Below are positions 4,328 through 48,439 of a stretch of 64,000 nt of DNA, piece by piece. Both the position numbers and the translations under genes were made by a program. The stretch covers positions 62,001 through 126,000 of the forward strand of contig NZ_AOCK01000013.1 in assembly GCF_000348945.1 (NCBI RefSeq), read 5' to 3'. This DNA comes from Paeniglutamicibacter gangotriensis Lz1y. GTDB lineage: Bacteria > Actinomycetota > Actinomycetes > Actinomycetales > Micrococcaceae. The notes under the pieces are model-generated. The model was not told the origin of the DNA, made no database searches, and worked only from the letters and a program-made list of their open reading frames with translations. How positions within the stretch are numbered: the first letter of the stretch is position 1; the number at the start of each line of letters is the position of its first letter.

Positions 4328-6091
4328 TCAGTGCGTGTCTTCGTCCCGGAGATCCCCGAGGTGCCCGGCAAGGCGGAGGACTCCGTCGAGGTCTACACAG
4401 GGTTCGTCTGTGGCGTGGTCTGGGCCGGGTTCGTCTAATTGCTCTTGGTCATCGGCGGAGACTGCTTCACACTTCGGGGCCTTCTCTAAAGGTGCGGGTT
4501 GCTGCCCGGATTCCGCTAGGGGCGGTTCCGGGACGGGCTCCGTCGTCTGGGGTGTGGCCGATTTGGGACCTTTTTTCGCCACCGGGGGTGCAGTGGTGGC
4601 CCCGGGGACATCGGATGGTTGGCTCGGGTCATCCGAAGGGGGTGCCGGAACCTCGAGTAGGGGAACATCTTTCACCGGAGGTAGCGTCTTGCCGGGCTTC
4701 GGATTAGCGGTGGTCGGTGCCTCGGCTTCCGGAGCAGGGGCCTCGGTTTCCGGCGGCTCGGCGGTCGGTGCCGGTGCCGTCGTTTCTGGGCTCGTGGTTT
4801 CCGGTGCTGGCGGCGTGGGCTTGGGGCTTGGCGATGGCTTCGGTTCAGCCTTCGGTGTCGGCGCGGGCGATACTGGTGGCGTGGGCCTGGGGCTTGGCGC
4901 TGGCTTCGGGTCGGCCTTCGGCGTCTGCTTGGGGCTTGGGGCTGGCTTCGGTTCGGCCTTCGGCGTGGGCTTGGGGCTTGGCGCTGGCTTCGGGTCAGCC
5001 TTCGGCGTGGGCTCGGGTTTAGTATCCGACTTTGGTTTTGGCTTTGGCGCGGGTTCGGGCCGAGCTTTGTCATCGGGCTTGGCCCGCGGCTTCGGTGTCG
5101 CGGTCGGCCCCTGCTGGACAACCGGCTCAGGCTTCGAGCCGCGCGGCGCGGAGTCGGTGAGCTCCGGGAAATCATGGGCCCCTGCTACCGGGGTCCGAGG
5201 AGTGCCGGCGTAGCGAATCGGCGGGGCCCCAACGGTGGTCCGGCGCGAATCAATCATGGCATTACGCTGGCCGGAGATCGGCGGCAGGAAGTTACGCGGG
5301 TCGTTCCAACGACCGTTGATGATCACTTCGAAGTGCACGTGGCAGCCGGTGGAGTTTCCCGTGGTGCCGCTCAAGGCAATGATCTGGCCCTGTTTGACGC
5401 TGTCCCCCACCCGGGCAATGAGCCGCGAGTTGTGGCTGTAGCCCGTGCGTACCGACGAGCCGTGATCGAGGGTCACCCGCATCCCCGAGTGTCCGGCCCA
5501 TGCAGATTGGATGACCACCCCGTCCGCTGAGGCATACACCGGGGAGCCGCAGGCAATCGCGTAATCCTGGCCAATGTGAATCTGCGTTCCAGCTCCGGTG
5601 GGGTTGTTTCGCCAGCCGTAGGGGCTGGTGATGTGTCGGGAGGAGACCGGATGCATCAGCTGGATCGCGCCCGGCAACGCCCCCAGCACTCCGACGCTTT
5701 GACCCACTATGGTCGTGTCGCCGTTGAATGGTGCTGCTGCCTGTTCGGCCCCGGTGCCCTGTCCCGGGTAGACGGAAGGGCTCTGGGCGGTCCCGCCCGC
5801 AGTTCCGGGACCCGCTGCGCTGCTGGTGATGTCGGGGGCTTGGAAATTGATCGCGTCCACCCCACTGAGCAGCGAAACGCTGACCGGCTCCAGATAGGCG
5901 ATCGCTTGGTAGCCGGGGGTTTCGGCGGGATGCGCTGCCCGTTGGTCCGGTACCACTCCCAAACCCGGGGCTCCGGAAACAGCCACCGCTGCCGCCACTG
6001 CCAGGCACAGCGCCGTAAGTCGGGGGATCTTGAATTTGCGGGCACCGGTTCGTCGGGGAGACCGGCCCCGATTCACCTGATGCTTGTTCAA
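4328..6091 (-). CDS. Secreted M23 (LytM) peptidase with Lys/Pro/Ala tail
   Basis: 587-residue exported cell-wall endopeptidase. A basic N terminus and a hydrophobic segment (about residues 22-46) form a signal sequence. The M23 domain spans about residues 145-270 with the zinc ligands in HIGQD (H172, D176) and HVHF (H251, H253). The remaining 300 residues are a low-complexity tail of 14-residue Lys/Pro/Ala units, followed by an acidic Thr/Pro/Glu region; such tails often span or bind the cell wall. TTG at 6091 is chosen because AGGGGG lies 9 nt upstream and the resulting MNKHQVN matches the paralogue start. A paralogue follows upstream at 6434-7738. Confidence 0.88.
   Translation of the reverse strand: MNKHQVNRGRSPRRTGARKFKIPRLTALCLAVAAAVAVSGAPGLGVVPDQRAAHPAETPGYQAIAYLEPVSVSLLSGVDAINFQAPDITSSAAGPGTAGGTAQSPSVYPGQGTGAEQAAAPFNGDTTIVGQSVGVLGALPGAIQLMHPVSSRHITSPYGWRNNPTGAGTQIHIGQDYAIACGSPVYASADGVVIQSAWAGHSGMRVTLDHGSSVRTGYSHNSRLIARVGDSVKQGQIIALSGTTGNSTGCHVHFEVIINGRWNDPRNFLPPISGQRNAMIDSRRTTVGAPPIRYAGTPRTPVAGAHDFPELTDSAPRGSKPEPVVQQGPTATPKPRAKPDDKARPEPAPKPKPKSDTKPEPTPKADPKPAPSPKPTPKAEPKPAPSPKQTPKADPKPAPSPRPTPPVSPAPTPKAEPKPSPSPKPTPPAPETTSPETTAPAPTAEPPETEAPAPEAEAPTTANPKPGKTLPPVKDVPLLEVPAPPSDDPSQPSDVPGATTAPPVAKKGPKSATPQTTEPVPEPPLAESGQQPAPLEKAPKCEAVSADDQEQLDEPGPDHATDEPCVDLDGVLRLAGHLGDLRDEDTH
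4879..5004. repeat. Three tandem 42-bp repeats in the M23 gene tail
   Basis: Three consecutive 42-bp units begin near 4879, 4921 and 4963; each encodes a 14-residue block of the type KADPKPAPSPKPTP on the minus strand. A diverged fourth copy lies at about 4813-4860. Copy number could vary between strains through slippage. Confidence 0.75.
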
Positions 6092-30397: not shown

Positions 30398-31093
30398 GTG
30401 GAAGCCACCGAAAACGACCCAATCCCAGAGACCACCGCCGAGACCAGTGTCGAGGAGTTCCCGGAGCCGACCGGCGAGCTGGTTCAGCCGATCATCTTGC
30501 TGGTGGACCGCGAAGAACCCTGCCCGGAGGAATCCGGCATTGCCGTGGCCGCCCTGGCATCGGTGAGCGCGCTGCTGGCCAATCCGCGCCACCCCTATTG
30601 GCGGCCTTGGGCACAGGGCGCGTTTGCCAAGAGCGTCCGCCGGGCTGATGCCAAAATGTTCGCGAAGGTCGCCGCCGAGTTCCCGGACCACGTACTGGCC
30701 GAGATCGGTACCGCCAAGGCATTGGGGTTTGCCCCAATACAGGCCGACTCCCTGGCCAAACGTCTGGCCAAGCTCCAAGTCTCCGGGACCACCCTGCCAC
30801 CCGGCGATCCCATGGATTCGACCCCGGTTCGCATCGTGCTGAACGATTCGCTGGGGATGAGTACGGGCAAGGCCGCCGCCCAGGCGGCCCATGCCTTGTT
30901 CGCCTGGGTCCTAGAGGGAAAGCCGGCGGAGCTTGAAGCCTGGCGCTCCGGCGGCTGCGCGCTGTCGATCGAACGCGCGGATTCCAAGATGTTCACGAAG
31001 AACGCGCGCACCGCCAGTGGTCCGTTGATCCACGATGCCGGGCGCACCGAAATCACACCCGGCTCGGCGACCGCGTTTGTCAGTGTCCACTGA
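30398..31093 (+). CDS. PTH2-type peptidyl-tRNA hydrolase with duplicated N-terminal half
   Basis: 231 residues. The C-terminal half (about 140-231) is a PTH2 domain, with LGMSTGKAAAQAAHALFAW and the closing HDAGRTEITPGSATAF. Such enzymes free tRNA from peptidyl-tRNA. The N-terminal half holds RADAKMFAK, echoing RADSKMFTK in the C-terminal half, and may be a degenerate second copy. GTG at 30398 is chosen because AGGGTGG lies 6 nt upstream; GTG 30389 is the alternative. The gene end overlaps the convergent acyl-CoA dehydrogenase gene by 14 nt. Confidence 0.8.
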   Translation: MEATENDPIPETTAETSVEEFPEPTGELVQPIILLVDREEPCPEESGIAVAALASVSALLANPRHPYWRPWAQGAFAKSVRRADAKMFAKVAAEFPDHVLAEIGTAKALGFAPIQADSLAKRLAKLQVSGTTLPPGDPMDSTPVRIVLNDSLGMSTGKAAAQAAHALFAWVLEGKPAELEAWRSGGCALSIERADSKMFTKNARTASGPLIHDAGRTEITPGSATAFVSVH

Positions 31094-32309
31094 CGAAGGC
31101 GGAGATCCCGGTCATGGCCCTTCCGACGATCAGCGAGTTGATCTCGTACGTTCCCTCGTAGGTATAGAGGACTTCCACATCGCCGAATAGCTTGGCCATC
31201 TCATGGTCGGTGGTGATGCCATTGCCTCCCAGCAGGGCGCGGCCCTTGGCCGCGGATTCACGCGCCAGACGCGTGGTCGTCGACTTCGCCATGGCCGCCT
31301 GGACCATTTCAAGGTCCCCGGAACTCTGGATCCTAGCTAGGTCGGTCATCAGGGAAAGGCTGGCCATGGCGTTGCCCAGGATCTCGGCCAACGGCAGTTG
31401 CACCAACTGGAATCCGGCGAGAGCTGTGCCGAACTGCGATCGCTCCAGCGCGTAGTCCCGCGCAATGTCAAAGATCCCCAATTGGACCCCGGCCGCCTGC
31501 CAGCCCACCCAAGCACGCGAATGCTTAAGCAGTTCGTTCGCGGCGGCAAAGTTCTTGACCCCGGGAAGTCGGTTGCTTTCGGGCACCCTGACTGCCTCGA
31601 GGTCGATGTCGGCATTCTGCATGATCCGCAGGCCGATCTTGTGGGAGATCTTTGTCGCGGTGAAACCTGGCCGGTCGGATTCCACGATGAAGGCCTTGAT
31701 TTCTCCGTCCGAGGTGTCTCTGGCCCACACCAGGGAGAAGTCGGCCATGGTGGCCGCCCCAATCCAACGCTTAGCACCGTTGATGACCCATTCATCTCCT
31801 TCGCGGGTGGCGGTGGTGGCGAGCCCTCCGGCGATGTCGGATCCGTGGTCCGGTTCGGTCAGGGCGAATGCCCCGAGCGCGGTGAAGTTGCCCAGTGCGG
31901 GCAACCACTTTTCCTTTTGTTCCTTGGATCCGAGTTGGTGGATCATCCCGACGATGAGCTCGTTGTGGATCCCGACCATGGCGGAGAGCGAGACATCGGC
32001 GCGTGCGGCCTCGACGTAGACCAGCCCCTTGAACAGGTCGCTACTGCCGTCAATCTGGAGGTTGCCCAAACCGTGGGCGGCCATCTCGGGTAGGAGGTGG
32101 TGCGGGAACTCCTCGCGGTTCCAGTAGTCGATGGACTCCGGGCGCAACCGTTCCTGTAAGAAGGTTCGGATCTCGAGCAGTCGTTGGTGCTCGGCCGGAT
32201 CTAGGAGCTGCCATACGTGCATGAGGTCAACGTCCATAAATGCAGGTTCCGGGGTGCTGGAGGTCCGACTCTTGGGGGTGGCTGGTGTCGGGGATTCGCT
32301 CAGTGGCAT
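31080..32309 (-). CDS. Acyl-CoA dehydrogenase, glutaryl-CoA dehydrogenase-like
   Basis: 409-residue FAD enzyme that oxidises an acyl-CoA at alpha-beta. FAD/substrate motifs are ALTEPDHGSDI and GAKRWIGAATMADF; the catalytic Glu is in TYEGTYEINSLIVGRAMTG. That C-terminal form and GGNGITTDHEMAKLFGDVE are those of glutaryl-CoA dehydrogenase-type enzymes, so glutaryl-CoA or a similar dicarboxyl or aromatic-derived CoA ester is a likely substrate. Divergent from an acyl-CoA synthetase gene; a 40-bp element shared with mmsA lies about 90-120 bp upstream. Confidence 0.9.
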   Translation of the reverse strand: MPLSESPTPATPKSRTSSTPEPAFMDVDLMHVWQLLDPAEHQRLLEIRTFLQERLRPESIDYWNREEFPHHLLPEMAAHGLGNLQIDGSSDLFKGLVYVEAARADVSLSAMVGIHNELIVGMIHQLGSKEQKEKWLPALGNFTALGAFALTEPDHGSDIAGGLATTATREGDEWVINGAKRWIGAATMADFSLVWARDTSDGEIKAFIVESDRPGFTATKISHKIGLRIMQNADIDLEAVRVPESNRLPGVKNFAAANELLKHSRAWVGWQAAGVQLGIFDIARDYALERSQFGTALAGFQLVQLPLAEILGNAMASLSLMTDLARIQSSGDLEMVQAAMAKSTTTRLARESAAKGRALLGGNGITTDHEMAKLFGDVEVLYTYEGTYEINSLIVGRAMTGISAFVSGH

Positions 32310-32395
32310 GAGAGGGGGTGTCTCCTGTCGATGAAATATTTGGCTCGGTGGTGGTCAACCCTTCCAAACCCTTGGATATCAAAGTATATTTGCAA

Positions 32396-32431
32396 GTGAC
32401 TCAAATCACTAGGGCTTCCTACTAATTAGGG
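32396..32431. promoter_or_regulatory. Candidate shared operator (site A)
   Basis: GTGACTCAAAT, then ACTAGGGCTTCCTACTAAT and AGGG, aligns with the site at 41378-41419. The centre resembles a palindrome (ACTAGG / TCCTACT). Relative to the acyl-CoA dehydrogenase start it lies at about -87 to -122; relative to the acyl-CoA synthetase start at -21 to -56, where a repressor would block transcription. Confidence 0.6.
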
Positions 32432-32451: not shown

Positions 32452-34167
32452 ATGACCGTTACCGAAGAATTCCGTACAGCACGCAACCGACTCCTCGAAT
32501 TGCGCACCAACTATGCAGGGGCGATGGCGGAATTCCGATGGCCCGAGTTCACCGAGTTTAATTTCGCTCTCGACTGGTTCGATGCTGTCGCCAAGGACCC
32601 GGCGCGCGCCAACACCAACGCTCTGGTCATTGTCGAGAAGAATGGTTCCGCCACCCGCTGCACCTGGGCTGGCCTCTCGGCCCGATCCAACCAGGTTGCC
32701 AACTGGATGCGCTCAATCGGCATGAAGCGCGGCGAAAAGATGATCGTGATGTTGGGCAACAGGGTGGAACTCTGGGAAATCATGCTCGCCGGCATCAAGC
32801 TGGGCATGGTCATGATCCCCACCACCACCCAAATGAACCATCTAGACCTGCAGGATCGGGTTGATCGCGGAGGCGCCCGCTGGGCGCTGGCGGGATCCGG
32901 CGATACCGGCAAGTTCGACAAGGTCACCGGCGAGTGCACGGTCATCCACGTCGACGGCGATGTCCCGGACGGCGCCCTGGACTACACCCAGAGCAGTGGG
33001 CACCCCACGGATTTCGTTCCCGAGGTCCCCACCAAGGCCGACGAGACCTTGCTGTTGTATTTCACCTCCGGGACCACGTCCAAGGCCAAGCTGGTGGAGC
33101 ACACCCACACCTCGTATCCGGCGGGCCATTTGAGCACGATGTTCTGGATCGGGCTGGAACCAGGCGACGTGCACCTAAATGTCGCCTCGCCCGGGTGGGC
33201 CAAGCATGCCTGGAGCAACTTTTTTGCTCCCTGGATCGCCGAGGCCACGGTCTTCCTCTACAACTACGATCGGTTTGATGCCAAGGCACTCATGGGGCAG
33301 ATGGACGCCGAGTCCGTCACCAGCTTCTGTGCACCGCCCACGGTGTGGCGCCTGCTGATCCAAGCCGACCTCACCGCGCTGAAGACACCGCCGGCCAAGC
33401 TGGTCTCTGCCGGCGAGCCGCTGAACGCGGAAGTCATCGACCAGGTCAACCAGGCCTGGGGCCAAACGATCCGTGACGGATTCGGGCAAACCGAAACCAC
33501 CGTGCAGATCGCCAACCCGCCGGGGCTTCCGATCAAGATCGGCGCCATGGGCCGCCCAATGCCCGGCTATGACGTGGTCCTGATCGATCCGGCCACCGGC
33601 CAGGCGGGGCGCGAAGGGGAAATCTGCCTACGGCTGGACCCTCGCCCGCTCGGGTTGATGAAGTCCTACTACGGGGATCAGGAAAAAACCGACGAGGCCT
33701 TCCGCGACGGTGTTTACCACACCGGGGACATGGCTGAAATGGACGAGCAGGGGGTCATCACCTATGTGGGGCGCGGCGATGACGTCTTCAAATCCAGCGA
33801 CTACAGGTTGAGCCCCTTTGAATTGGAGTCTGTACTGATCGAGCATCCCGCGGTGGCCGAGGCAGCGGTGGTCCCCTCCCCCGATGCCCTGAAACTCTCG
33901 GTCCCCAAGGCCTTCGTGGTCACCGCCGACGGGTACCAGGCCTCGGCGGAGCTGGCCGAGAGCATCCTGCGGTACTGCAGGGAAAATCTGGCTCCCTTCA
34001 AACGGATCCGCCGGCTGGAATTCGCTGACCTTCCCAAAACCATCTCCGGGAAAATTCGTCGGGTGGAACTGCGGCGCAACGAAGCCGCACGCCACGAAGG
34101 CGCCGCGGCAGCCGAAGGCCAAGGCATTGAATACCGCGATGACGACTTCCCGTCGCTGAAATCCTGA
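32452..34167 (+). CDS. Acyl-CoA synthetase (MACS-type AMP-dependent ligase)
   Basis: 571-residue ligase that activates a carboxylic acid to its CoA ester through an acyl-AMP. The P-loop is LYFTSGTTSKAKLVEH (near residue 203), followed by the MACS-type NVASPGWAKHAWSNFF; the adenylate motif is GFGQTET, the hinge region YVGRGDDVFKSSDYRLSPFE, and the catalytic lysine is in KTISGKIRRVEL. Likely acids are medium-chain, branched or aromatic. A MarR gene follows 52 bp downstream, and the glutaryl-CoA-dehydrogenase-like gene diverges upstream. Confidence 0.92.
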   Translation: MTVTEEFRTARNRLLELRTNYAGAMAEFRWPEFTEFNFALDWFDAVAKDPARANTNALVIVEKNGSATRCTWAGLSARSNQVANWMRSIGMKRGEKMIVMLGNRVELWEIMLAGIKLGMVMIPTTTQMNHLDLQDRVDRGGARWALAGSGDTGKFDKVTGECTVIHVDGDVPDGALDYTQSSGHPTDFVPEVPTKADETLLLYFTSGTTSKAKLVEHTHTSYPAGHLSTMFWIGLEPGDVHLNVASPGWAKHAWSNFFAPWIAEATVFLYNYDRFDAKALMGQMDAESVTSFCAPPTVWRLLIQADLTALKTPPAKLVSAGEPLNAEVIDQVNQAWGQTIRDGFGQTETTVQIANPPGLPIKIGAMGRPMPGYDVVLIDPATGQAGREGEICLRLDPRPLGLMKSYYGDQEKTDEAFRDGVYHTGDMAEMDEQGVITYVGRGDDVFKSSDYRLSPFELESVLIEHPAVAEAAVVPSPDALKLSVPKAFVVTADGYQASAELAESILRYCRENLAPFKRIRRLEFADLPKTISGKIRRVELRRNEAARHEGAAAAEGQGIEYRDDDFPSLKS

Positions 34168-34219: not shown

Positions 34220-34744
34220 TTGAGCCAGCCATTATCGCGCGACCCGATCCTGGAAGCGCAACGCAATTGGGAACGCCACGGGTGGGAGGATGTCGCCGAG
34301 CCCATGGCCGCGATCACCGCCCTGATGCGCACGCAACAGATCCTCTTGCAGCGCGCGGAAACGGTGCTCAAGCCCTTCGGCCTGACCTTCGCCCGCTACG
34401 AGATGCTCGCACTGCTCAGCTTCACCCGCGACGGTGCGCTGGCCATGAACAGGGCCAGCGCACTACTCCAGGTCCATGCCACCTCGGTGACCAACGTCGT
34501 GGACCGCTTGGAGCGTGCCGGACTGGTGGCCCGCACCAAGCATCCGACCGACAAGCGAACCACCCTCATCGCTTTGTCCACGCAGGGTCGTGATTTGGCT
34601 GCCGACGCCACGCTCGAATTAAACGCCCAGGTCTTTGCCGACTCCGGTTTCTCGGATCGGGACATCTCCACGTTGATCCGGATCTTTTCCAAGTTCCGTA
34701 AGGAGGCCGGGGACTTCGCCGCAGAGGATTCCATCGACTCGTAG
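34220..34744 (+). CDS. MarR-family transcriptional regulator
   Basis: 174-residue regulator. Dimerising helix LMRTQQILLQRAETVLKPFG, then FARYEMLALLSF, recognition helix HATSVTNVVDRLERAGLV and wing TKHPTDKRTTLIAL are all in place. TTG at 34220 has GGAGGG just upstream. Its place after the acyl-CoA synthetase is typical of MarR members that sense CoA thioesters of aromatic or fatty acids, so it may bind the operator between 32396 and 32431 (inference). Confidence 0.9.
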   Translation: MSQPLSRDPILEAQRNWERHGWEDVAEPMAAITALMRTQQILLQRAETVLKPFGLTFARYEMLALLSFTRDGALAMNRASALLQVHATSVTNVVDRLERAGLVARTKHPTDKRTTLIALSTQGRDLAADATLELNAQVFADSGFSDRDISTLIRIFSKFRKEAGDFAAEDSIDS

Positions 34745-37791: not shown

Positions 37792-38718
37792 CTAGGCTTG
37801 CGAGCCGTCCCTGATATCGGTGATGATGCCGGAGAAATCGCGGCCAGCCCCGCCCTCGTCGGCGAACTTGCGGTAGATCTGCGCGGCCAGCGGGCCCAGC
37901 TGCGCGGCAACCCCGGCATCTTCGAGCGCATTCAGCGCCAGCCCCAGGTCCTTGGCCATCAAGGCCCCGGCAAAACCGGGGACATAGTCCCGGTTCGCCG
38001 GGGAAGCCGGCACCGGACCGGGGACCGGACAGTTGGTGGTGACCGCCCAGCATTGGCCCGAGGCCGTGGAGATCACGTCGTAGAGAGCTTGGTGGCTCAG
38101 GCCCAACTTTTCGCCCAGCACGAAGGCTTCCGCCGCACCGATCATGGAGATGCCCAGCAACATGTTGTTGCAGATCTTCGCCGCCTGGCCAGCCCCGTGT
38201 CCACCGCAGTGCACCAGCTTCTTTCCCATGACTTCCAGCAGCGCAGTGAGCTGTTCAATCTCCGATTCTTCGGCCCCGATCATGAAGGTCAGGGTTCCGG
38301 CCTCGGCGCCGACCACCCCGCCGGAGACAGGTGCGTCGGCGGAGCGGTGTCCGGCGGCCACCGTCAGCTCTGCTGCTTCACGGGCCTGAGCCACATCGAT
38401 GGTGGAGCAGTCCAGAAACAGGGTGTTTGGCGGTGCGACCTCGAGCAGCCCGGGTTCGCCGGCACCACGGTAGGCATCTAGCAGGATGGCCCCGGAGGGG
38501 AACATCGTCAGCACGACCGATGCCCCGGTCACGGCCTCCGCAGCGCTCGTGGCACAAGGCACTCCGGCCTCGGTGGCTGCGGCCATCGCCGCGGGAACCA
38601 CGTCGAAGCCCACCACGTCGAAGCCCGCTTTGATGAGGTTCACCGCCATGGGTTCGCCCATGTGTCCAAGCCCCAGGAACGCTATCCGGCCCGCGGAGAC
38701 GGGTGATTTCTCGGTCAT
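37792..38718 (-). CDS. mmsB: 3-hydroxyisobutyrate dehydrogenase
   Basis: 308-residue NAD-dependent enzyme that turns 3-hydroxyisobutyrate into methylmalonate semialdehyde in valine breakdown. The dinucleotide motif FLGLGHMGEPMAVNL is at the N terminus, the substrate signature DAPVSGGVVGAEAGTL near 130, and the catalytic Lys is in GHGAGQAAKICNNMLLG. GGAGGAA precedes the ATG. Third gene of the mmsA operon, 15 bp after the hydratase/hydrolase. Confidence 0.93.
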   Translation of the reverse strand: MTEKSPVSAGRIAFLGLGHMGEPMAVNLIKAGFDVVGFDVVPAAMAAATEAGVPCATSAAEAVTGASVVLTMFPSGAILLDAYRGAGEPGLLEVAPPNTLFLDCSTIDVAQAREAAELTVAAGHRSADAPVSGGVVGAEAGTLTFMIGAEESEIEQLTALLEVMGKKLVHCGGHGAGQAAKICNNMLLGISMIGAAEAFVLGEKLGLSHQALYDVISTASGQCWAVTTNCPVPGPVPASPANRDYVPGFAGALMAKDLGLALNALEDAGVAAQLGPLAAQIYRKFADEGGAGRDFSGIITDIRDGSQA

Positions 38719-38733: not shown

Positions 38734-39807
38734 CTATTCGGCCGCGTCGCTGAGAGCGCGTGGGTTGAGTTTGAGTTCGCGTTCCCCCAGCGAGGCGAAG
38801 CTTGCCTCCAACACCGAAGCGTCCACCTCGCCCAGGGTGGCGGGGTTCCACGCCGGGGCGTAGTCCTTGTCGATGACCTGGGCCCGAATGCCCTCGGGGA
38901 AATCGCTGGAATCCAGGGCCCGCAGCCCCACCCGGTATTCCTGCTCCAAGACCTCTTCGAGGGTGGTCATGCCCTTGGCACGGCGCAGCGAGGCGAGCGT
39001 GAGCTTCAGAGCCGTCGGGGATTTTTTAGCCAAGGTCTCCACCGCAGTCTTGGCCTCCTGATTGCCTTCGGCCGCCAAGACTTCTAGTGCCGAGACGATA
39101 TCTTCAACTTCGGTGCCGGCATAGGCAGCATCAAGCCAGCCCTGCCAGGCTTCGAGCTGAGAGGTGGGTGGGGCCAAGACGAAGTCCGCCAGCACCTCGT
39201 TCACTGGTTGCGTCTGAAGTGCAGTGAACAGCTCTTCGGCACGGTTGAAGTCGATCAGGTGGTCGGCCAGACCCAGGTAGAGCACCTCGGCGGCGCCTAG
39301 GTGTTCCCCGGTCAGCGCGGCGTGGGTGCCGCTTTCTCCCGGGGACCGCGAGAGCAGGAAGGTTCCACCGACATCGGGGACGAAGCCGATGGTGGTTTCC
39401 GGCATGCCGCTGCGCGTCCGGGTGGTGACCAGCCGGTGGCTTCCGTGGGCCGAGATCCCGACTCCCCCGCCTAACACCAGCCCGTCCATATAGGCGATAT
39501 AGGGCTTGGGGTAGGCATTGATCAAGGAATTGAGCCGGTATTCGGTAGCCCAGAATTCCTCGGTTTGGGTACCGCCGGCGGCGATGTCGCGGTGGATCGC
39601 CACGATGTCCCCGCCGGCACACAGTCCCCGTTCCCCGGCCCCGCGCACCAATACCTGGTCAATGGCCGGGTCATCGGCCCACGCGCGAAGCGTGTCGAGC
39701 ATGGCCGAGGCCATCGACCCGGTCAACGCATTGACCGCACGGGGCCGGTTCAGCGTGATCACGCCCAGGGTGCCACGCACTTCAAAAAGGACTTCGGATT
39801 CGGTCAT
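38734..39807 (-). CDS. 3-hydroxyisobutyryl-CoA hydrolase / enoyl-CoA hydratase family
   Basis: 357 residues, the length of 3-hydroxyisobutyryl-CoA hydrolases rather than of the 260-residue hydratases. The crotonase core has NRPRAVNALTGSM, the oxyanion segment GLCAGGDI and ETTIGFVPDVGGTFLLSR. The C-terminal ECH_2 region (KSPTALKLTLASLRRA and LEQEYRVGLRAL) confirms the hydrolase subgroup. It frees 3-hydroxyisobutyrate from its CoA ester between the hydratase step and mmsB. It starts 4 bp after the mmsA stop. Confidence 0.9.
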   Translation of the reverse strand: MTESEVLFEVRGTLGVITLNRPRAVNALTGSMASAMLDTLRAWADDPAIDQVLVRGAGERGLCAGGDIVAIHRDIAAGGTQTEEFWATEYRLNSLINAYPKPYIAYMDGLVLGGGVGISAHGSHRLVTTRTRSGMPETTIGFVPDVGGTFLLSRSPGESGTHAALTGEHLGAAEVLYLGLADHLIDFNRAEELFTALQTQPVNEVLADFVLAPPTSQLEAWQGWLDAAYAGTEVEDIVSALEVLAAEGNQEAKTAVETLAKKSPTALKLTLASLRRAKGMTTLEEVLEQEYRVGLRALDSSDFPEGIRAQVIDKDYAPAWNPATLGEVDASVLEASFASLGERELKLNPRALSDAAE

Positions 39808-39811
39808 GGGA

Positions 39812-41311
39812 TCAGCTGCCTTCCGGCATCACGAAGCTGGTACCCTCGCGTATCCCCGAGGGCCAACGCGTGGTGACGGTCTTGGTCTTGGTGTAGAACC
39901 GGAATCCGTCGGCACCGTGCTGGTTCAGGTCCCCGAAGCCCGAGGCCTTCCACCCGCCGAAGGTGTAGTAGGCGATCGGAACCGGGATCGGCACGTTCAC
40001 ACCGACCATGCCCACCTGCACCCGGGAGGTGAAGTTCCGTGCGGTGTCCCCGTCGCGGGTGAAGATCGACACGCCGTTGCCGAACTCGTGTTCGGAGGGA
40101 AGCCGCAGGGCCTCCTCGTAGTCCTTGGCTCGGATGATGCACAGCACCGGACCGAAGATCTCTTCCTTGTAGATCCGCATGGATTCGGTGACATGGTCAA
40201 AGAGTGTGGGGCCGACCCAGAACCCGTCCTCATGGCCGGGCACGACCAACCCGCGGCCGTCGATGAGCAGCGAAGCGCCCTCGTCCACGCCGACCTGGAT
40301 GTAGTTTTCGATGCGTTCCTTGGCGCTTTGGGCGACCACCGGGCCGAAGTCGGAGGATTCGTCCATGCCGTCGCCGACCCGGAGCTTGCCGATGCGTTCG
40401 GTCAGCTTGGCCACCAGCACATCGGCCGTTTCCTCGCCGACCGGGATGGCCACCGAGATGGCCATGCAGCGTTCTCCGGCCGACCCGTAGCCGGCACCCA
40501 TCAGGGCATCGGCGACCATGTCCAAATCCGCGTCGGGCATGATCACCATGTGGTTCTTAGCCCCACCGAAGCACTGGGCACGCTTGCCATTCGCTGCCGC
40601 CGTGGCGTAGATGCTCTGCGCGATGGGGGTGGAGCCGACAAAGCCGATGGCCTGCACCCGCGGGTCCTCCAGCAGCGCATCGACGGCTTCCTTGTCCCCG
40701 TTGACCACGTTGAACACGCCGTCGGGCAGGCCCGCCTCGGTGAACAGCTCGGCCAGGCGCAGCGGGACCGAGGGGTCGCGTTCGGAGGGCTTGAGAATGT
40801 AGGAGTTGCCCGAGGCCAGGGCCGGTCCGGCCTTCCACAGCGGGATCATGGCCGGGAAGTTGAACGGGGTGATGCCGGCGACCACACCGAGAGGCTGGCG
40901 CATCGAGTGGACGTCGATGCCGGTGCCGGCACTGTCGGAGAATTCGCCCTTGAGCATGTGCGGGGCTGCGGCACAGAACTCGATGACCTCAAGCCCGCGC
41001 TGGATGTCGCCCTTGGAATCGGGGAAGGTCTTGCCATGCTCGAGGGTCAGCAGCGCGGCGAGTTCATCCATGTTCGCATAGACCAGGTCAACGAACTTGT
41101 TCAGGATCCGGGCCCGGCGCTGGGGATTCGTCGCTGCCCACTGGATCTGGGCGGCCTCGGCCACATCGATCGCGGCGCGGACCTCGTCGACCGAGGCCAG
41201 CGGGAGCCTTGACTGCACGGCCCCGGTGGACGGGTTGTACACATCGGCGAAACGTCCGGAAGTTCCCGCGGCATGGGTGCCGCCCACGTAATGGGACAGT
41301 TCACGAGTCAT
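39812..41311 (-). CDS. mmsA: Methylmalonate-semialdehyde dehydrogenase (CoA-acylating)
   Basis: 499-residue aldehyde dehydrogenase giving propionyl-CoA from methylmalonate semialdehyde, the last step of the valine branch. NAD-binding FVGSTPIAQSIYATAA is present, and the catalytic Cys lies in GSAGERCMAISVAIPVG, the MmsA-specific context. The N-terminal TSGRFADVYNPSTGAVQ is typical. First gene of a three-gene operon; AAGGAG precedes the ATG. The element shared with the acyl-CoA dehydrogenase promoter lies about 67-108 bp upstream. Confidence 0.95.
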   Translation of the reverse strand: MTRELSHYVGGTHAAGTSGRFADVYNPSTGAVQSRLPLASVDEVRAAIDVAEAAQIQWAATNPQRRARILNKFVDLVYANMDELAALLTLEHGKTFPDSKGDIQRGLEVIEFCAAAPHMLKGEFSDSAGTGIDVHSMRQPLGVVAGITPFNFPAMIPLWKAGPALASGNSYILKPSERDPSVPLRLAELFTEAGLPDGVFNVVNGDKEAVDALLEDPRVQAIGFVGSTPIAQSIYATAAANGKRAQCFGGAKNHMVIMPDADLDMVADALMGAGYGSAGERCMAISVAIPVGEETADVLVAKLTERIGKLRVGDGMDESSDFGPVVAQSAKERIENYIQVGVDEGASLLIDGRGLVVPGHEDGFWVGPTLFDHVTESMRIYKEEIFGPVLCIIRAKDYEEALRLPSEHEFGNGVSIFTRDGDTARNFTSRVQVGMVGVNVPIPVPIAYYTFGGWKASGFGDLNQHGADGFRFYTKTKTVTTRWPSGIREGTSFVMPEGS

Positions 41312-41377
41312 GTGATTGATGCTCCTTGCAAAGTTCGCGAAAAACGCGGCAACGTCCTGTGATGCGCGCCACGCCTG

Positions 41378-41419
41378 TTACTCAAAAATATACTCGGACT
41401 TCCTACTAAATTGCTAGGG
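41378..41419. promoter_or_regulatory. Candidate shared operator (site B)
   Basis: GTTACTCAAAAATATACTCGG followed by ACTTCCTACTAAATTGCTAG aligns with the site at 32396-32431. The core TACTCGGACTTCCTACTA is an approximate palindrome. It lies upstream of mmsA in the same orientation as the other site does towards the acyl-CoA dehydrogenase gene. Confidence 0.6.
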
Positions 41420-47565: not shown

Positions 47566-48439
47566 GGGCCCAACAGAGTCATGTCGGTCTTCGCGTCCCA
47601 AGGGCAGCCACCGCTACGCGACGGTCACGGAATTTCCTCTCTAGTGTCGGACTGTCACATTTAGGCCCGAAAGCGCACCCGAAACTCTTCCGCATCGTTA
47701 TGACTTCTTGATTTCAATCATCCCTTCACTTACTGGGGCACCCTTCACGAATGGGGCCAAGGAAGCGAGGCCCGGGATCTCCTGGGCGCCCAGTACGTTG
47801 AATATCGGTTTCACGAAACGGGGCCGACCGAATCACGCCGCGCGCTAGTTCGATATACACATGGCCGGATCTACTGCCCGGACGTTCTGGCCACATGAAC
47901 CGAAAAGCGCGGGGTTACAAGGGATTTGCTCCGTAACTACTGGGGCCGCCTACTGACACGCTCCCTACCTGCAGCGTTTCCGAGCGTAGTCCTGAGCTCC
48001 TGGTCGGGGGACGGCCGGCACTCCTTCCGTCGCCGGCGACCCACGAGCGCCCCTTCTCTCCTCGAGAGACGTCATTACTGGGCCGTTATATAAGTTCCCA
48101 AGAAAAAGCGTGCCAGAGCACACATTGGACACACACCGACAGGTTGTTTCGACGCCCCGCTTTCCGACATTTATCGAAGACACCCCTACGCTGACCTGTA
48201 GTGATATGACGCGGGCACAAGTACGTTCTTTTGGTTTCAAATCCCGAATCACGAGCAAATTACGGAATAGTTACACCGTTGTAATTGAAGTTTTTTATGT
48301 GACGGCTGTTGCCAGTGTGAATAGGTATCCCATAGGGTGCTATAGGAAGCAGCGATCAGGCCGATCCGTTCAGGCCGCATTTCTCGCATCGGTTAAGCGA
48401 GGAATGCACACCGATCGCCGCGGTAAGGATCAACACGGC
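47566..48439. other. Long gene-free region before the NlpC/P60 gene
   Basis: 874 bp without a credible gene. The right part (about 48230-48340) is A/T-richer and probably holds the promoter. An open frame in phase with the NlpC/P60 gene extends back to 48110 but lacks coding character before the signal peptide. The 47600-48100 part shows no recognised RNA or protein; it may be decayed coding DNA. Confidence 0.6.

Follow-up and report, generated by a model that had tools for sequence, protein, structure and literature searches.

We propose that a 20-bp palindromic box, WTASTNGGNNNNCCNASTAW, is the operator of a MarR-family regulator encoded at 34220–34744 (plus strand) of a 64,000-nucleotide stretch of the Paeniglutamicibacter gangotriensis Lz1y genome (hereafter, the window), and that this regulator acts as a repressor of isobutyryl-CoA genes that is released by an acyl-CoA; we assign this reading a probability of about 0.87. 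The evidence, all read from genome sequence, consists of the box itself, its neighbouring genes, its co-inheritance with the MarR gene and its place beside that gene in several genera.

The putative targets in the window lie on both sides of the MarR gene. An acyl-CoA dehydrogenase (ACAD) gene at 31080–32309 (minus strand; no NCBIfam model above cut-off) is separated by a 142-bp spacer from a divergent AMP-binding acyl-CoA synthetase gene at 32452–34167 (plus strand; best NCBIfam model MbcS, below cut-off), and the MarR gene starts 52 bp after the synthetase stop on the same strand. The second group is headed by mmsA, the methylmalonate-semialdehyde dehydrogenase gene and first gene of a putative target operon (39812–41311, minus strand; TIGR01722 above cut-off), followed by the genes for 3-hydroxyisobutyryl-CoA hydrolase (38734–39807, minus strand; NF004127 above cut-off; PF16113) and 3-hydroxyisobutyrate dehydrogenase (37792–38718, minus strand; TIGR01692 above cut-off). 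We infer that the ACAD may be an isobutyryl-CoA dehydrogenase and that the synthetase may act on isobutyrate or similar acids, both proteins scoring below equivalog cut-offs.

The original prediction described an element of about 40 bp with a palindromic core, common to the ACAD/synthetase and mmsA promoters and placed 70–120 bp before leftward genes. Both sites were located: the shared pattern ACTNGGNCTTCCTACTAA occurred without mismatch as ACTAGGGCTTCCTACTAA at 32408–32425 and as ACTCGGACTTCCTACTAA at 41392–41409. A search of the whole genome (4,319,900 bases in 20 contigs, ~4.32 Mb) returned three perfect matches, all before catabolic genes (3/3); besides the ACAD/synthetase spacer and the region before mmsA, the third site (C5:214460) preceded etfB and etfA, both of which encode ETF domains; etfA runs off the end of the locus. 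At up to 3 mismatches, the window held 3 matches compared with 0.05 expected from shuffles, the third of which, at ~47937–47939 with 3 mismatches, was counted as background. At the same tolerance the whole genome gave 8 matches against 25 for the reversed-pattern control, so exact copies alone were taken to count. Matches at 2–3 mismatches in this genome showed no excess over the control, and we therefore claim no fourth genome site.

The conserved unit was the 20-bp palindrome (32406–32425 and 41390–41409), about half of the length first described; the core is indeed palindromic, with the ACAD and mmsA copies of this genome being imperfect palindromes. The predicted operator box between ACAD and synthetase (32406–32425, TCACTAGGGCTTCCTACTAA) has 1 mismatch to the consensus, and the predicted box before mmsA (41390–41409, ATACTCGGACTTCCTACTAA) is exact. 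The former lies 97–116 bp before the leftward ACAD start and the latter 79–98 bp before mmsA, as had been described, but the former is also 27–46 bp before the start of the rightward synthetase; placed between the two divergent genes, it would be able to serve both. Among 55 distinct exact sites, the free positions favoured an ACGT or ACTT centre, the other positions being fixed by the pattern.

Alignment of the spacers with those of relatives showed which parts of the element are kept. The ACTCAAA and AGGG blocks of the longer element were not conserved in sister sequences: in two aligned sister sequences the former read ACCCAAA in the mmsA spacers and differed in the ACAD spacers, and the latter was out of register. 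The ACAD/synthetase spacer was found to hold a second, degenerate box at 32368–32387 (ACCCTTGGATATCAAAGTAT, 3 mismatches; ACCCTTGGATGTCCTAGTAT in Arthrobacter and relatives), which is more widely conserved than the 32406 site first reported. Its core was kept in all ten rows of a hand-chosen ACAD spacer alignment, whereas the 32406 box was present in four, namely the window and the three rows closest to it, from Arthrobacter sp. C2 (L129), Paeniglutamicibacter quisquiliarum (L130) and a same-genus genome (L034, G074), and absent from the remaining six, all of other genera. Touching the 32406 box is a perfect GTGA-N6-TCAC palindrome at 32395–32410 (AGTGACTCAAATCACT), kept in 9 of the 10 aligned rows, and a similar sequence at 41358–41373 (TGTGATGCGCGCCACG) lies close to the mmsA box; we take both to be CRP/GlxR-like. 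Flanking both boxes as they do, these sequences suggest a second, cAMP-receptor-type input, and since such sites at up to 2 mismatches were rarer in the window than expected from shuffles (8 vs 20), their number by itself is no proof. A consensus scan detected no sigma-70-like promoter in either the ACAD/synthetase or the mmsA spacer.

The 34220 protein scored above the cut-offs of both Pfam MarR_2 and MarR, and its AlphaFold model (mean pLDDT 92.8) had MarR structures at the head of the Foldseek list. The best PDB match of the MarR alignment was 4b8x (profile E 1.9e-48; next 1.8e-14), which also came first in Foldseek under the title Sco5413. When 4b8x was used as the query, the 34220 MarR was the sole match in the window genome (E ≤ 1e-25), and the two proteins have in common a VHxTSVT stretch in the winged helix. 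Sequence and structural model together identify the 34220 MarR as an ortholog of Sco5413. The next-best fold matches, MftR and PecS, are MarR proteins with an additional N-terminal helix and were 23–27% identical to the 34220 MarR, whose model likewise has a helix (9–19) ahead of the long helix; MftR and PecS have different operators and ligands. Sco5413 is a Streptomyces coelicolor MarR whose structure was titled 'of unknown function' (Holley et al. 2013). CouR, a MarR of Rhodococcus jostii, had a related fold (Foldseek rank 9; 23–26% identity) and is described, in the text available, as a catabolic repressor released by the acyl-CoA of its pathway, p-coumaroyl-CoA (PMC4737184); that pathway is aromatic, unlike the regulon proposed here. 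M. tuberculosis Rv0737, which may or may not be an ortholog, is said, in the accessible part of its report, to act on sigL-rslA (PMC13002591).

Box and regulator were strongly associated across genomes. In the family survey of 295 Micrococcaceae genomes (MarR at E ≤ 1e-12; exact box defined as WTACTNGGNNNNCCNASTAW), the MarR was detected in 162 and the box in 102, all of which were MarR-positive (102/102), compared with 0 of the 133 genomes lacking the MarR (Fisher 1.5e-36; 2.2e-11 within ten tabulated genera). The reversed-pattern control occurred in 9 of the 295. Box and MarR were jointly missing from some genomes of genera g7, g10, g24, g26, g28 and g32. The class survey covered 246 genomes, with the MarR called as a match to the 4b8x stretch at E ≤ 1e-25. 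It was present in 161 and the exact box in 95, of which 93 were MarR-positive (Fisher 1e-20; control in 10/246). The two exceptions were G675 and the incomplete genome G624, where an IcmF-like gene follows the box. The exact box was lacking in 60 of the 162 MarR-positive family genomes, 7 of them in genus g32, and in 68 of the 161 MarR-positive class genomes, which points to motif drift or regulon loss in places. The exact box was absent throughout class family f36, though large genomes there carry the MarR ortholog; the operator may have changed in this family. At the order level, 48 of 297 genomes had the exact box and 11 the control, and the MarR lay within the fetched stretch in 14 of 20 loci hand-picked from the box list.

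In relatives, boxes were found at the promoter of the MarR gene itself. Together with the co-inheritance of box and MarR, this strongly supports the original proposal that one regulator, with the 34220 MarR as candidate, governs acyl-CoA and valine catabolism, and the pairing extends far outside the window. A box preceded the MarR gene in L026, L040–L045, L058, L060 and L076. In genera g24 and g29, it lay between the MarR gene and a divergent etfBA pair (6 loci: L026, L040, L041 and L043–L045); L042 had MarR and box, with etfB outside reach. The box was between MarR and ACAD in L058 and L076, and in L060 it preceded the MarR gene with no further target in reach. The predicted operator is thus in or beside the regulator's own promoter in these loci, and in the window the box sits in the promoter region of the preceding synthetase. 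Two same-genus genomes, G200 (L060) and G210 (L058), have the MarR gene uncoupled from the synthetase and its own-gene box kept.

Wider sampling from the MarR side gave a similar picture. Among the best 80 of 563 MarR loci (Paeniglutamicibacter, Arthrobacter, Sinomonas, Rhodococcus, Nocardia and others), 26 had an exact box, 41 a box at up to 1 mismatch and 39 none, compared with 0 exact and 5 at up to 1 mismatch for the reversed control. In these 80 loci the MarR gene was often near hibadh, hibch, ACAD and mmsA, in that order, and many had a box before mmsA, as seen in Nocardia (e.g. L199, L203, L205 and L206); in L184 (Antrihabitans), a box with 1 mismatch lay between MarR and mmsA. In the 20 loci picked at the order level, mutase genes also followed the box. 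Eight were named by HMM, comprising five for the fused isobutyryl-CoA mutase IcmF, all above the NF045497 cut-off, and three for a mutase large subunit, above the TIGR00641 cut-off.

The Streptomyces-like loci tied the box to a mutase gene. The 21 loci closest to 4b8x were 86–96% identical and of one genus, taken as Streptomyces from that identity. The box was exact in 19 of them and present at up to 1 mismatch in 20 (controls, 0), and in 20 of the 21 the first aligned codon of a gene for a mutase large subunit lay 12–18 bp downstream of the end of the box; that gene was on the strand of the MarR gene and 0.47–0.63 kb from it. The remaining locus, L245, had neither mutase gene nor box in reach. 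No box stood directly before the MarR gene in any of these loci, only before the mutase gene. The targets thus differ between lineages, being valine, etf and acyl-CoA genes in Micrococcaceae, whereas the Streptomyces-like box precedes an isobutyryl-CoA mutase gene. The etfBA site in the genome, the link to isobutyryl-CoA mutase and the orthology with Sco5413 go beyond the original prediction.

The positions of pattern-picked boxes were then scored in 100 box-centred loci (29 + 22 + 20 + 29, at least two sites, G298:C2 and G295, being counted twice). The similarity of the two promoters had been said to be chance if the motif fell at random positions or was absent from sister species; the outcome was the opposite. 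Of the 100 boxes, 94 had the start of a target gene or of the MarR gene no more than 300 bp downstream, compared with rates of 0.09–0.25 for random positions in the same loci. Targets were etfBA, acyl-CoA dehydrogenase, mmsA, isobutyryl-CoA mutase or MarR, the mutases having joined the list after being seen in the loci, and L260 was scored as a match solely via a distant MarR (34%). The six misses were L018 and L020, scored as such despite an ACAD gene there, L112, and three taken as background, L212 (neighbouring dCTP deaminase), L213 (IMP dehydrogenase and exonuclease genes nearby) and L227. The L227 site (6002–6021, G020) is a perfect palindrome, TTAGTTGGTGCACCAACTAA, near another MarR in a genome without a Sco5413 ortholog, and is perhaps the operator of that other MarR.

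Three other explanations were considered. That the two promoters resemble each other by chance draws on the 8 matches against 25 control matches at 3 mismatches, and with no excess at this level the weaker copies are indeed background. The exact matches are nevertheless confined to three related promoters and conserved across genera, and we regard chance as refuted by the family box survey, the co-occurrence of box and MarR and the target-gene positions, leaving it a negligible probability. More plausible, though still unlikely, is that the MarR is an activator at the box, or that its regulon is general fatty-acid beta-oxidation and not isobutyryl-CoA. EtfBA serves acyl-CoA dehydrogenases generally, and the ACAD of the window exceeded no NCBIfam cut-off, which would suit the broader role. 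The recurring partners are, however, mmsA, hydroxyisobutyryl-CoA hydrolase, hydroxyisobutyrate dehydrogenase and isobutyryl-CoA mutase, and repression would fit boxes whose end is 12–27 bp from the coding sequence, as at icmA and the synthetase.

The box could also belong to another valine regulator that is co-inherited with the MarR; a CRP-family protein or a TetR like BkaR would be examples. Because MarR and valine genes often adjoin, co-occurrence with the MarR might be seen for any valine regulator, and CRP-like sequences are found beside both boxes. Such a regulator would nonetheless have to account for boxes close to the MarR gene in different contexts, the MarR gene being with etfBA, with icmF, alone (L060) or half a kilobase ahead of icmA, and we consider it improbable. 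BkaR of mycobacteria resembles the proposed MarR in being an autoregulatory, palindrome-binding repressor of actinobacterial branched-chain catabolism, but it is a TetR with a different gene set, and its core motif is given in the accessible text as GTTA(N)T(N4)A(N)TAAC (PMC3920632). This core differs from WTASTNGGNNNNCCNASTAW and the regulator here is a MarR, not a TetR; BkaR was rejected as the binder of the box.

In the mechanism favoured here, repression by the 34220 MarR, a MarR dimer would sit on the 20-bp palindrome, roughly 10–120 bp before start codons, and block transcription of genes whose products form isobutyryl-CoA, consume it or accept its electrons. The regulon here would comprise the synthetase and MarR itself, ACAD, mmsA with the hydroxyisobutyryl-CoA hydrolase and hydroxyisobutyrate dehydrogenase genes, and the distant etfBA; in relatives it would additionally include icmF and the mutase large-subunit gene icmA. 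The MarR would be released by one of the pathway's acyl-CoAs, isobutyryl-CoA being the likeliest, as CouR is by p-coumaroyl-CoA. The steps are not equally firm: judged from sequence patterns, the 34220 MarR very probably binds the boxes and probably represses the target genes. As for the inducer, an argument from shared metabolites gives isobutyryl-CoA about an even chance. It is favoured because the valine-type and mutase-type regulons share it as a metabolite, and butyryl-CoA would be the alternative.

On a larger scale, we lean slightly towards viewing the Sco5413 family as a class-wide isobutyryl-CoA sensor of Actinomycetia, with one repressor and one 20-bp operator across families. Such a sensor would, by a similarly slight preference, control the fate of isobutyryl-CoA, either the valine pathway with ETF oxidation or IcmF/IcmA rearrangement to butyryl-CoA, with targets swapped between lineages. 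This would be a clean case of regulon rewiring, in which regulator and operator are conserved and target genes are lineage-specific. Isobutyryl-CoA and butyryl-CoA are polyketide precursors, so the control point would matter both for valine catabolism and for the supply of antibiotic precursors. MarR repressors of catabolic operons are of a known kind, and the operator and regulon of the Sco5413 group appear to be new: among the literature matches listed (titles and abstract starts, with most subscription papers outside), there was no description of the box as an operator or of a MarR for isobutyryl-CoA. For a very widespread regulator of actinobacteria, known from a crystal structure titled without a function, the proposal names an operator, a regulon and a probable inducer.

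Further copies of the box were seen in some loci. A half box, ATTACTAGGAAG, lies ~21 bp from the full box before etfB of the window genome (L001 ~1470–1485, G000:C5), and adjoining double boxes also occur in G262 and L232, which hints at tandem binding. In five Streptomyces-like genomes (L288–L292), a second box, TTACTCGGACTTCCTACTAT, recurred; in the loci inspected (L288 and L289) it was 0.4–0.5 kb before an isopropylmalate-dehydrogenase-type gene, probably leuB, which in L288 is followed next by a class IV aminotransferase gene. A link of TTACTCGGACTTCCTACTAT to branched-chain amino acid synthesis is possible.
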